Shown: in pieces, positions 5,150-18,509 of the stretch
Position numbering within the stretch: the stretch's first letter is position 1
Layout of the letters: each line of letters begins with the position of its first letter
Origin: Gallionella sp.
GTDB lineage: Bacteria > Pseudomonadota > Gammaproteobacteria > Burkholderiales > Gallionellaceae
Reading direction: 5' to 3'
Assembly (NCBI GenBank): GCA_030700315.1
Contig: JAUYJO010000065.1
Coordinates: 1-37,814 of the forward strand
Length of the DNA stretch: 37,814 nucleotides
The notes under the pieces: generated by a model
What the model saw: only the letters and a program-made list of their open reading frames with translations
What the model was told of the DNA's origin: nothing
Database searches by the model: none
Program-made: the position numbers and the translations under genes

Positions 5150-7168
<2,019 letters not shown>

Positions 7169-7170
7169 GC

Positions 7171-9582
7171 ATGAGCATCGAGCAAACCAGCGAAGACCAA
7201 TCCAGTCTCTTTCCCGATGAGCAAATCACCGCCCCAGAAGTTGCGGCAGAACTGATAGAACCGGCAGCAGCGCCCGGCGGCAACGGCGGCGCAAGACAGT
7301 TCGCCCCGCTGCCCGCGCTGCCGGATGGCGATGATGTGCCGATTGCGCAGTATGCCGAGCGCGCCTATCTGGAATACGCCATTTCCGTAGTAAAAGGCCG
7401 TGCGCTGCCGGACGTGTGCGACGGCCAGAAGCCGGTGCAGCGGCGCATTCTTTACGCGATGCGCGCGATGGGGCTGAACCACGGCAGCAAACACGTCAAG
7501 TCGGCGCGCGTGGTCGGCGACGTGCTGGGCAAATATCATCCGCACGGCGATTCATCCGCCTATGAAGCCATGGTGCGCCTGGCACAGGACTTCTCGCTGC
7601 GTTATCCGCTGGTGGACGGGCAGGGCAATTTTGGCACGCGCGACGGCGACAACGCGGCGGCCATGCGCTACACCGAGACACGCCTCACCACGCTCGCCGA
7701 ACTGCTGCTGTCCGAAATCGACATGGGCACGGTGGATTTCGTGCCCAATTACGACGGCGCATTTCAGGAGCCCGCCATGCTCCCGGCACGTCTGCCAATG
7801 GTGCTGCTCAACGGCGCATCGGGCATCGCGGTCGGCATGGCGACGGAAATTCCCTCGCACAATCTGCGTGAAGTTGCGGATGCCGCCGTGCAACTGGTGC
7901 GCAATCCCGACCTCGGCGACGATGTTCTGCTCGCCTGCATCCACGGGCCGGACTTCCCCGGCGGAGGGCAAATCATCTCGTCCGCGCGCGACATCCGCGA
8001 ATGCTATCTGAGCGGACGCGGCTCGCTAAAGATGCGCGCCCGATGGACCGTCGAAGAACTGGCGCGCGGCCAGTGGCAAATCGTCGTGTACGAACTCCCG
8101 CATGGTGTTTCAACCCGCAAAGTGCTGGAAGAAATCGACGAGCTGACCAACCCGAAAGTCAAAGCCAACAAGAAGAGCCTGACGCAGGATCAGGTGCAGA
8201 ACAAGCAACTGCTGCTGTCGGTGCTGGATGCGGTGGCCGACGAGTCCGACAAGTCGCAGGCCGTGCGTCTGGTGTTCCAGCCCAGGTCCTCGCGCCAGAC
8301 GCAGGACGAGCTGATGAATGTGCTGCTAGCACACACCAGCCTGGAATCTTCTGCCCCCATCAATATGACTATGATCGGGCTGGACGGACGCCCGCAGCAG
8401 AAGCCGCTGACCCGGATCATCCGCGAATGGGTGGAGTTCCGCCTGCACACCGTGCGCCGCCGCAGCGAGTATCGTTTGGCCCAGGTCAACGACCGCCTGC
8501 ACATCCTTGAAGGCCGCATGGTGGTCTTCCTCAACCTCGATGAAGTAATCGCCCTGATCCGCGAATCGGATGATCCCAAGGCCGCGTTGATCGCAAGATT
8601 CGAACTTTCCGAGCGCCAAGCAGAAGACATACTGGAAATCCGCCTGCGCCAGTTGGCGCGCATGGAAGGCATCCGCATCGAAAAAGAAGTGAAGGCGCTG
8701 GAGAAAGAACGCCGCGAGCTGACGCGCCTGTTATCCAAGGAAAGCGCACTGCGCGAACAGGTCGCCGAAGAGATCGAAGCAGATGCCGCGACCTACGGCG
8801 ACGAGCGCCGCACGCTGGTCAAGGAAGCAGAAAAGTCGGCGCTCGTTGCGCTGGTAATCAACGAACCGGTGACTGTGATCCTCTCCAACAAACACTGGGT
8901 GCGCAGCCGTCAGGGGCATGGCTTGGATTTGTCGGCGCTCACTTTCAAGGATGGCGACAGCATGCTGGACAAATTCGAGTGCCGCACCACCGACCACTGC
9001 ATCGTGATCTGCGACAACGGCCGCGTGTGCAGCATCCCCGTCGCGCAATTGCCCTCGGGGCGAGGCGATGGCGCACCGCTCTCCACCTTCATTGATCTCG
9101 CTCCTGGAGCCAAAATCGCGCACGCGCTATGTGGCAAATCCGAGCAGAACTTATTGATTTCGACCTCCTCCGGTTACGGCTTTCTTTGCACGCTCGGCGA
9201 CATGGTGGGCAGGCAGAAAGCGGGGAAACAATTCATCTCCGTAGATCGGGAAGCTATCCTGATGCCGGCCCCTTTCACGCCCACCGAACAATCATTGGTG
9301 GCAGCGGTATCCGGCGGCGGCAGATTGTTGGTGTTCCTGCTGGCCGAAATGAAGCGCCTGCCGGGCGGCGGCAAAGGTGTCATCATCATGGGGCTGGGGG
9401 AAGGCGACGAATTGGCGGCCGTTTCCGTCATCAACCAGGCCGAAGTAAAAATTATCGGCAAGGCCGGAACACGCGAGCAAGCCGTCAAATTGCCTGGCGC
9501 GGTTCTGCACGGTTATTTCGGCAAGCGTGCGCGCGGCGGCAAGCAACTCCAGGCCCGGTTAAAACCTATGCGGATTGAGTGA
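7171..9582 (+). CDS. parC: DNA topoisomerase IV subunit A (ParC)
   Basis: The DNA-cleaving subunit of topoisomerase IV. The catalytic tyrosine is Tyr167 in [10 protein letters not shown]. The winged helix holds [15 protein letters not shown]; Ser128 and Glu132 correspond to E. coli Ser80 and Glu84, the usual quinolone-resistance positions, and both are the susceptible residues. The tower and coiled-coil gate follow, with a C-terminal beta-pinwheel at about residues 560-800 with repeated [12 protein letters not shown]-like blades. About 50 poorly conserved, Ala/Pro/Glu-rich residues precede the first conserved block, so this ParC (803 residues) is extended at its N-terminus compared with E. 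coli (752). It lies two bases after parE. Confidence 0.97.
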
Positions 9583-15717: not shown

Positions 15718-15834
15718 CTAGGGAGGCGCTGATTTATTCGGTTTCGTCGTTCCCGCGGAGGCGGGAACCCAGTTAAATTAAGGCACTGGATCTCCGCCTT
15801 CGCGGAGATGACGAATAAATCAGCGCTTCCCTAG
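15718..15834. mobile_element. MITE with IS5-type ends and CTAG target duplication
   Basis: A 109-bp element (15722-15830) has 19-base terminal inverted repeats GGAGGCGCTGATTTATTCG and CGAATAAATCAGCGCTTCC with one mismatch, flanked by CTAG at 15718-15721 and 15831-15834. A CTAG-like four-base duplication is typical of IS5-group transposases. The inside carries a second imperfect palindrome (15745-15772 with 15786-15813) related to the core of the element at 4169-4347. There is no coding capacity, so it must have moved with a transposase supplied elsewhere. The downstream CTAG contains the mutS stop codon. Confidence 0.82.
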
Positions 15835-18509
15835 ATCAGCGTCTTCAACTGATACAACCGCTCCAACGCATCCTTCGGACTCAATTCATCCGGCTGCAAT
15901 TCGCGCAGTGACTTTAACACCGGATGCTCTTCCGGTTCCGGCATCTCCAGTTCCGGCATCTCCGATTTTTTGTCGAACAGATCGCCCTGCGGATTTTGTG
16001 CGGCACTGCTCTGTTCCAGTTTGACAAGTTGTTTCTTCGCGGCGCGGATGACGCTGTTCGGCACGCCCGCCAGCGCGGCGACTTGCAGGCCGTAGCTCTG
16101 GCTGGCGGCACCTTCGTTGACGCTGTGCAGGAACACGATGCTGTGCTGGTGTTCGATGGCGGCGAGGTGGACGTTGGCGAGCTGGGCGAATTCTTCGGCG
16201 AGGCGCGTGAGTTCGAAATAATGCGTGGCGAACAGGGTGTAGCTGCGGTTCTTTTCCAGCAGGTGGCGTGCGATGGCGTAGGCGAGGGCTAAGCCGTCGA
16301 AGGTGGAGGTGCCGCGCCCGATCTCATCCACCAGCACCAGACTTTTTTCCGTGGCGTTGTGCAGGATGTTGGCGGCTTCTGTCATCTCGACCATGAAGGT
16401 GGAACGTCCGCTGGCGAGGTCGTCGGATGCGCCGATGCGCGTGAATATCTGGTCGGTCTCGCCGAGCGTTGCTGTTTGTGCAGGAACGAAACAGCCGACA
16501 TGCGCGAGCAGCGCGATCAGCGCGACCTGGCGCATGTAGGTGGATTTACCGCCCATGTTCGGGCCGGTAATCAGCAGCATCTTGCGCGCAGCGTGCAGGT
16601 CGGTGTCGTTGGCGATGAAGTTCTCGATTTGCGCTTCCACCACCGGATGGCGGCCTTGCGTGATTTCTATTTGCGTGTCGTCGCTGAACTGTGGCGCGCT
16701 GAAATTCAGCGTGGCGGCGCGCTCGGCGAAGGTGGCAAGCACATCGAGTTCGGCGATGGCGGCGGCGATGCGTTGCAGTTGCGGGATGAACGGCGCGAGC
16801 TGGTCGAGCAGTTGTTCGTAGAGGAATTTCTCGCGCGCCAGCGCGCGGTCGTTGGCGGACAGCGCCTTGTCTTCGAAGGTCTTGAGTTCCGGCGTGATGT
16901 AGCGCTCGGCGTTCTTCAGCGTCTGGCGGCGGCGGTAATCGTCCGGCACGTTCACGGACTGGGCCGCGCTCACTTCAATGTAGAAACCATGCACGCGGTT
17001 GTATTCGACTTTCAGCGTGGCGATGCCGGTGCGCGCGCGTTCGCGCGCTTCCAGCGCCAGCAGGAAATCGCCGCAGTTGGTCTGGATGCCTCTTAGCTCA
17101 TCTAACTCCGCATCAAAGCCGTCGGCGATCACGCCGCCTTCGCGCAGCACCGAGGAGGGTTCGGGTTTCAGGGAAGTTTGCAGGATGGTGACGAGATTCG
17201 TGTCGTTTTGCAATGCATCGGCGAGGCTGGCAATCAGCGAGCGGTTTTGTAGGTCGGGTTTCCCCGCAAGGGGGAGGCAGGTGGGTTCCCCGCTGCTGCG
17301 CAGCGACCCTTCCGCTCCCAACCCGACATCATTATTGCCGTGTCGGGTCAGAACCCGAACCACAAGTGCGGTTTGCAGTTGCGGCAAGGCCAGCAGCGTG
17401 TCGCGCAGGCCGGACAGATCACGCGGTCTTGCGCTGCGCAGGGCGATGCGTGCGGTGATGCGTTCCACATCGACACAGGGTTTGAGGTGGTCGTGGGCGG
17501 CACGGTGCAGCCCGCTCAGTTGTTCCACCGCACCCAGCCTTGCCCCCAGCACCGTGCGGTCACGCAGCGGGTGATGCAGCCAGTTCGCCAGCAAACGGCT
17601 GCCCATGTGGGTCGCGCAGGTGTCGAGCAGCGACAGCAGGGTGGGGGCGGGTTCGCCGCGCAGGGTCTGGGTAATCTCCAGGTTGCGCCGCGTCGCGGCA
17701 TCCATGCGCACGTAACGATCGGCGCTATACACCTGCAGACTACGAATGTGGTTGATGGCCTGGCCTTGCGTGAGCTTGGCGTAGCCGAGCAAGGCACCGG
17801 CGGCTTCCAGGCCCACGCTAAAATTATCGCAGCCGAATCCGGCCAGGTCGAGCGTGGCGAACTGCTGGCACAGCGCGCGGCGCGCCGTTTCCAGTTCAAA
17901 GTGCCAGTCGGGCAGCGATTTCAGCGCGGCGTGGCTATTGGCTTGCAGGGCGGCATTTTCGGCATGCAGAATTTCGGAGGGTTGCAGGCGTTCCAATTCG
18001 GCGGGCAGGTTGTCGGCGGAAGTTTCGCAAACGCGGAATTGCCCCGAGGCGAGATTCAGCCAAGCCAGGCCCAGCTTGCCGCTGCGTTGATGCAGCGCCA
18101 GTAGCAGACAGTCGCGCTTTTCTTCCAGCAAGGCGGAATCGGTGACGGTACCGGGGGTGACGATGCGCACTACTTTGCGCTCGACCGGGCCTTTGCTGGT
18201 GGCGGGGTCGCCGATCTGCTCGCAGATCGCCACCGATTCGCCGAGTTTGACCAGACGCGCCAGGTATTGCTCGGCGGCGTGATAAGGGACACCCGCCATC
18301 CTTATCGGCTGCCCGTTGGATGTGCCGCGCTGCGTCAGCGTGATGTCGAGCAGCTTGGCGGCGCGCACCGCATCTTCGTGGAACAGCTCATAGAAATCCC
18401 CCATGCGGTAGAACAGCAGCATGTCGGGATGCTCTGCCTTGATGCGCAAATATTGCTGCATCATCGGCGTGTGAGCCGGTTCTTTGATTTCTTTATTCAC
18501 ATTGCCCAA
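15831..18509 (-). CDS. mutS: DNA mismatch repair ATPase MutS with a repeat-derived insertion
   Basis: MutS recognises base mismatches and recruits MutL. Its 892 residues include mismatch-reading Phe39-x-Glu41 in RMGDFYELF, connector, lever and clamp domains, Walker [10 protein letters not shown] at 649-657 and Walker [13 protein letters not shown] near 725. The family is usually about 850-860 residues; the excess is explained by residues 383-421, which are encoded by a 117-bp repeat element (17248-17364) placed in frame in the lever region. Removing it rejoins LPQLQTAL directly with NRSLIASL. The stop TAG lies in the CTAG target duplication of a MITE. The start is uncertain: TTG 18509 and GTG 18500 both precede the conserved HTPMMQQYL block. 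Confidence 0.95.
17248..17364. repeat. 117-bp palindromic repeat element inserted in the mutS coding sequence
   Basis: The ends are imperfect inverted repeats, TGTAGGTCGGGTT at 17248-17260 and AACCCGAACCACA at 17352-17364. Internal copies of the same words occur: AACCCGAC at 17320-17327 and the hairpin TCGGGT/ACCCGA at 17343-17358. The length is exactly 39 codons and contains no stop in the mutS frame. Similar TGTAGGTCGGGTT palindromes are a familiar type of intergenic repeat in proteobacteria; finding one inside a gene is unusual. Confidence 0.75.

Follow-up and report, generated by a model that had tools for sequence, protein, structure and literature searches.

The locus considered here raises the question of how 117 bp of palindromic DNA came to lie in frame within a gene for mismatch repair, what kind of DNA this is, and what it may mean for the protein. 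The window, i.e., the complete stretch of 37,814 nucleotides that was analyzed, belongs to a draft Gallionella sp. genome (3.5 Mb in 243 contigs, with an estimated contamination of 5.43%) and carries on its minus strand, at 15,831–18,509, an open reading frame for the DNA mismatch repair protein MutS, which starts with TTG and runs through 892 codons, insert included, without interruption. The score of the protein against the MutS family model TIGR01070 (1099.6 bits; NCBIfam cut-off 641.7), together with its fold, places it in the MutS1 family, and it also matches NF003810 (1053 bits). The 117 bp are authentic in-frame repeat DNA built in two layers, and, taking the explanation as a whole, we consider it very probable that small non-autonomous mobile palindromes were inserted in two steps and tolerated in a MutS loop.

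Architecture of the 117-bp insert

The insert (17,248–17,364, minus strand) occupies residues 382/383–421 at site B, one of five insert-prone sites of the protein, and its ends form a 14-nt inverted repeat that is 86% complementary. The uninterrupted frame, the imperfect inverted ends, and the assignment to residues 383–421 proposed in the first-pass annotation are all borne out by these data. The same annotation held that excision of exactly 117 bp would bring the protein back to the normal MutS length; in comparison with insert-free relatives, MutS shows a net gain of 36 codons and not 39, so that some three codons of the original loop can no longer be recognized and removal of the 117 bp would not restore the ancestral loop.

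The composite nature of the insert is evident from the comparison with G092, whose MutS (91% identical to that of the window) scores best among those of the other genomes of the genus. At the same codon, the mutS of G092 contains a clean 58-bp inverted pair of REPs of the family designated F1, without the second element, F6, and the alignment of both DNA sequences leaves exactly 57 extra bp in a hairpin tip of the window, between near-identical flanks. In the window, the outer F1 arm with its intact GTAG head (17,249–17,262, plus strand) consists of GTAGGTCGGGTT plus two tip bases; the 57-bp F6 (17,263–17,319, no strand assigned) sits in the tip of this one F1 hairpin, its end points being uncertain by a few bases, as letters are shared at the junction; and the second arm of the hairpin (AACCCGAC, 17,320–17,327), a spacer, and the other F1 hairpin complete the element (17,320–17,363, likewise without an assigned strand). 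GTAG is thus intact at 17,249 and its partner decayed (17,360–17,363), the outer end of the other hairpin reading CCAC, while both ends are intact in G092, G083, and G093. F6 without F1 is also present within the queA, dnaE, and ftsK frames of the host; its position, as judged from the host sequence alone, is within the Pfam domain match for QueA and FtsK and, for DnaE, in the stretch that joins the NTPase domain to the finger domain.

That the 117 bp move as one unit is not supported. The search of the genome with the whole 117 bp, in which 40 of 131 first-look candidates were scored, returned the insert itself and three partial matches, all to its inner part (query 16 to 68–76); none of the scored candidates was a further complete copy, and alignment with G092 divides the piece in two. 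Of the mobile repeat that the first-pass annotation had seen in MutS, the dispersed repeat forming codons therefore stands, on the copy number of its core, and the single unit does not. The order of events may be reconstructed as follows: a first F1 REP pair (58 bp) would have entered mutS after about residue 382, a form kept by G092-like relatives, and later, in the lineage of the window's genome, F6 (57 bp) would have entered the tip of one F1 hairpin; MutS would then be translated with about 39 extra residues, probably mostly disordered. An assembly or binning artefact, which the 243 contigs of the draft might invite, as might G095, whose MutS ends at site B with its contig stopping inside the same element, is scarcely credible and already largely refuted: the same kind of insert lies at the same codon in other assemblies, including the five-contig G027, and at site A an insert is found in G064, a genome in a single contig.

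When folded as single-stranded DNA, the 133-nt stretch 17,240–17,372 is more stable than 200 of 200 shuffled versions (z −3.56). This fold, obtained with DNA parameters, would also suit a hairpin that works in the mRNA by tuning the translation or stability of mutS, with the peptide as an incidental product, and extracts of PMC3733652 describe many REPs as transcribed and argue for a possible RNA role. Nevertheless, such a function is highly improbable here, since the hairpin lies mid-gene and must be translated through, and none of the inserts in the aligned mutS ORFs breaks the frame; among the 64, G094 (locus L168) is split by an in-frame TAG elsewhere, near residue 763.

Copy number of F1 and association with RAYT genes

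The F1 core GTAGGTCGGGTT, with at most one mismatch, is present in the host genome in 247 copies on the plus and 243 on the minus strand versus 21 and 32 for the reversed control, so that 490 copies against 53 are far above chance. The further genomic copies by which the first-pass annotation proposed to check its repeat thus exist for the F1 core, and these 490 near-exact copies also rule out the origin of the 39-residue loop by ordinary divergence. A known structured RNA was likewise discarded as the identity of this DNA, as five insert loci gave five matches, all of them to microRNA models and far below the gathering scores. The strict 22-nt F1 hairpin, found in 37 of 76 genomes of the genus, reaches 108 copies in the host, the highest number among the 76 (the next has 18), and its control gives 0 in every one of them. 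Inverted pairs are seen among 23 F1 copies listed from a sample, and six of the 27 F1 clusters in a 437-kb sample fall inside ORFs of 150 aa or more when assigned by a mechanical rule, which overlooks the copy in the window itself; the two of these six ORFs that were tested match the protein families FolC and sensor kinase.

Five Y1_Tnp matches were identified in the host, four of them above the Pfam cut-off, and both matches tested further, L205 and L206, belong to the NCBIfam family REP_Tyr_transpos, including L206, which is below the Pfam cut-off and scores 190.6 in the NCBIfam model against a cut-off of 80. In L206, the ORF of this REP-associated tyrosine transposase (RAYT; 1363–1923) lies between two F1 REPs of opposite orientation, one at 1320 (plus) and one at 1947 (minus). 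F1 therefore has the features of a GTAG REP, being a short GTAG-ended palindrome in many dispersed copies, with a RAYT gene flanked by the same REPs, and it is probably mobilized by RAYTs acting on single-stranded hairpins. REPINs are units composed of two REPs in inverted orientation; the F1 pair resembles them in forming one such unit, and differs in that it serves as codons and has received another element. The presence of an element in mutS goes with more copies of it in the genome, both for F1 (6 versus 58 genomes, p 0.0026) and for F4 (11 versus 53 genomes, p 0.014) in one-sided comparisons that ignore kinship; G093, with an F1-type insert in mutS yet 0 strict F1 hairpins in its genome, counts against the explanation preferred here.

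In-frame inserts across the genus and in other genes

In the Gallionella-related genus, mutS was found in 71 of 76 genomes, and 64 sequences were aligned; the twelve genomes left unaligned comprise five without a mutS match and seven with fragments or weak matches (G003, G014, G018, G022, G036, G077, and G078). In-frame inserts of at least 8 aa are carried by 38 of the 64 aligned MutS, with a total of 60 inserts at five sites, a count that leaves out extra stretches ahead of the likely start (positions −16 and −7); among the 58 sequences of at least 840 aa, 36 are insert-bearing. The insert of the window, which had been called unusual in the first-pass annotation, consequently exemplifies a pattern seen across the genus and lies where MutS is tolerant. 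The inserts are distributed over site D (near residue 141; 5 inserts), site E (near residues 187–191; 4), site A (residue 331; 22), site B (residue 383; 17), and site C (residues 433–437; 12).

A palindrome family motif is present in 58 of the 60 inserts (37 genomes), against 9.7% of 12000 length-matched random segments from 25 insert-free mutS genes, and in 3 of 125 native loops, the family labels resting on loose motifs together with reading by eye. Both inserts lacking a motif belong to G068 (L159), whose MutS-like frame exceeds 1100 codons, with several extra stretches and without the exact GPNMGGKST string. The families are F1 (GTAGGTCGGGTT), F2 (CCCTCTCCC), F3 (GTAGGGTGGGCAGC), F4 (CCTGAGCTTGTCGAAGG), F5, a hairpin of about 60 bp that by reading was seen in MutS only inside F2 or F4 (six genomes), and F6, the 57-bp piece nested in the F1 of the window; F1 and F3, both starting with GTAG, may be kin. 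At site B, F1, F2, and F3 start at nearly one codon, and relatives with an insert at this site share the DNA element of the window or carry another, rather than the same residues encoded by unrelated DNA, which agrees with what the first-pass annotation expected of an alignment. At site C, the difference between G070 and G069 is a 60-bp F5 inside F4.

On a MutS tree of 62 rows, from which the insert regions as well as G002 and G095 were left out and in which 24 of 59 inner branches are weak, presence or absence (at least 4 aa) changes at least 8, 4, 13, 14, and 11 times at sites D, E, A, B, and C, respectively. As lineages with similar inserts are dispersed over this tree, whose support is weak, part of this pattern may stem from recombination; in a check for the latter, flank identities at site B did not set the F1 carriers apart. 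In named genomes, the top-scoring MutS matches bear the labels Gallionellaceae, Sideroxydans, and Gallionellales, which points to the kinship of the host. Among the 80 best-scoring MutS loci listed for named genomes, element-like inserts at the five sites were found in two, L035 and L037, whose labels are Gallionellaceae and Gallionellales (L037 is apparently the same contig as G013), and a further six have loops that exceed the reference by 8 aa or more, with no recognized element; on these 80 loci, inserts as a general MutS feature are not supported.

The same 76 genomes offer a comparison with other genes, in which a net gain of at least 8 aa over the median is found in 0 of 35 ParC, 0 of 34 ParE, 2 of 59 CarB, and 18 of 66 PheT, counting full or near-full orthologue matches, without partial matches and the query's own genome, and using the longer of the two PheT copies of G017 (the other would give 17 of 66). 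MutS is thus the most affected of the five genes tested and not the sole one, and the occurrence of its inserts in more genomes than those of the four control genes suggests that plain loop tolerance may not explain everything. In CarB, the gain of G016 fits no assigned family, and G083 is without an insert of at least 8 aa in one place. ParC and ParE matches exceed the gyrase level in only about half of the 76 genomes (the window's own parE and parC are at 5,207–9,582), and G017 and G069, with two full PheT copies each, are perhaps mixed bins. The 18 PheT loci fetched (L267–L284) represent G092 and, with the exception of G070, every one of the 18 genomes in which PheT gained at least 8 aa (17 loci). 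By reading, 13 of them have F2-type inserts, 12 at about residue 446 and one at residue 586, which rules out a restriction of these elements to MutS; no element was recognized in the remaining 5. The PheT of G095 reads as a three-layer nest, with F5 inside an F2-like palindrome inside F2.

In the host itself, mutL (L287, G000:C214:13779-17390; ORF of 685 codons, minus strand) encodes a MutL in which 156 extra bp interrupt the family match at model position 198/200, as a nested palindromic insert near ORF codon 230 that reads as F2 enclosing an F2-like palindrome, which in turn encloses F5; by eye only, the MutL linker shows another F2-like stretch. Besides MutL, in-frame palindrome copies recognized in the host's own sequence lie in DnaE (L003), QueA (L002), FtsK (L004), and FolC (L198:17567-19165), and also in L194:16581-19955 (AcrB-type) and L200:10365-12671 (HsdM). 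It is very unlikely that the mismatch-repair pair of the genus, MutS and MutL, is a preferred landing ground for palindromes whose inserts tune repair; if it were, lineages of differing mutation rates would follow, or elements blunting mismatch repair and anti-recombination would aid their own spread, and MutS would be a naturally evolving platform of loops encoded by mobile DNA.

Protein structure, repair function, and related palindromes

An AlphaFold2 model was computed from the window's MutS sequence and 43 relatives, the window's protein alone being modelled; its mean pLDDT is 84.7, and its best structure match is E. coli MutS (1ng9_A, TM by target 0.89). Site B belongs to what we take to be the core/lever region of MutS, and residues 393–420 have pLDDT values below 50 and lie between helices 362–391 and 425–432, in agreement with the surface loop suggested by the first-pass annotation; in the model, insert residues 382–391 prolong the helix before them instead of forming a free loop, which counts against the explanation preferred here. 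The other sites are also located at the ends of, or between, neighboring elements of the modelled fold, namely helices 318–331 and 335–342 (site A), helices 425–432 and 437–446 (site C), strands 136–142 and 145–152 (site D), and strands 179–183 and 195–199 (site E). The exposed loop, the open frame of the elements, and the preservation of the frame in both steps suggest that selection tolerated the result, and wide insertion, with survivors only where loop and frame permit, would bring different families to the same few MutS sites across the genus.

The shared positions could instead reflect the recognition of a target sequence by the elements, that is, integration specificity and not tolerance of the protein, as the start of three families at nearly one codon of site B and the nesting of F5 and F6 within hairpins of other palindromes might suggest. 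However, the same target would then be required by different families, no common sequence is apparent by eye at the five sites, all of which are at turns of the fold, and ParC and ParE have no gains of at least 8 aa (0 of 35 and 0 of 34); we therefore consider target specificity quite unlikely, and retain tolerated insertion as the preferred explanation.

Regarding function, three motif strings (GDFYEL, Walker A, and DEIGRGTST) are kept in 55 of the 64 aligned rows, the window's MutS among them; the nine rows without at least one exact string are the fragments G002, G013, G030, G081, and G095, those with an inexact GDFYEL (G063, G065, and G086), and G068, with an inexact Walker A. The dN/dS of mutS is 0.110 between the window's genome (G000) and G092, and 0.104 between G000 and G008; in hand-picked pairs it ranges from 0.04 to 0.11 in eight with at least one insert-bearing MutS versus 0.04 to 0.15 in five without. 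Inserts do not go with longer terminal branches (median 0.068, n = 37, versus 0.085, n = 25; p 0.46). Motifs, dN/dS, and branch lengths suggest that the MutS of the window still works, and a mutator effect is more likely to be absent or mild. A contrary reading would have the insert weaken mismatch repair, making the host a constitutive or mild mutator, with the recurrence of inserts as repeated selection for a higher mutation rate. The nested insert in the host MutL and the F6 copy in DnaE fit such a view, as do the frequency of inserts in MutS, above that of all four control genes, and the many replication and repair genes among the intragenic REPs in extracts of PMC3733652, where mutators are proposed. 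Nevertheless, the retained motif strings, the similar dN/dS ranges, the terminal branches, the position of the insert sites at turns of the model, and the hot place in PheT, a non-repair gene, make this reading unlikely.

Tolerated in-frame palindromes have precedents, and the present case belongs with those of Rickettsia and with intragenic GTAG REPs. Rickettsia palindromic elements (RPE) lie in frame in proteins, among them a guanylate kinase described as still active in extracts of PMC2229807, and in-frame palindromes in Rickettsia proteins also appear in extracts of a paper on R. japonica (PMC3767692). The elements described here share with RPE and their Wolbachia counterparts that multi-copy palindromes stand in frame within conserved protein genes (MutS, and also MutL, QueA, DnaE, FtsK, and FolC); they differ in their occurrence in a Gallionella-related genus, in the number of sequence families, and in the repeated and nested insertion at a few sites of one protein. 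Intragenic GTAG REPs have been reported in several bacteria, many of them in replication and repair genes such as uvrA, recB, DNA polymerase I, and the dnaE of R. conorii, and were proposed to create mutators (extracts of PMC3733652). The GTAG head, the hairpin pairs, the many copies, the RAYT flanked by REPs, and the copies in repair genes are common to those REPs, as covered by these extracts, and to F1, whereas different families at one codon across a genus and in-frame nesting are features of the present case. The term mutS is absent from the main text of PMC3733652, and among the literature matches listed, by their titles and abstract beginnings, none dealt with palindromes in mutS, multi-family insertion at the same site across a genus, or in-frame nesting.

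The 60 accepted in-frame inserts amount to an insertional scan that nature has performed on a key fidelity protein, and they mark the MutS sites that tolerate foreign peptides, and small mobile palindromes add protein sequence repeatedly, even one within another. The natural insert-bearing and insert-free versions of MutS in this genus make the earlier mutator proposal directly testable.
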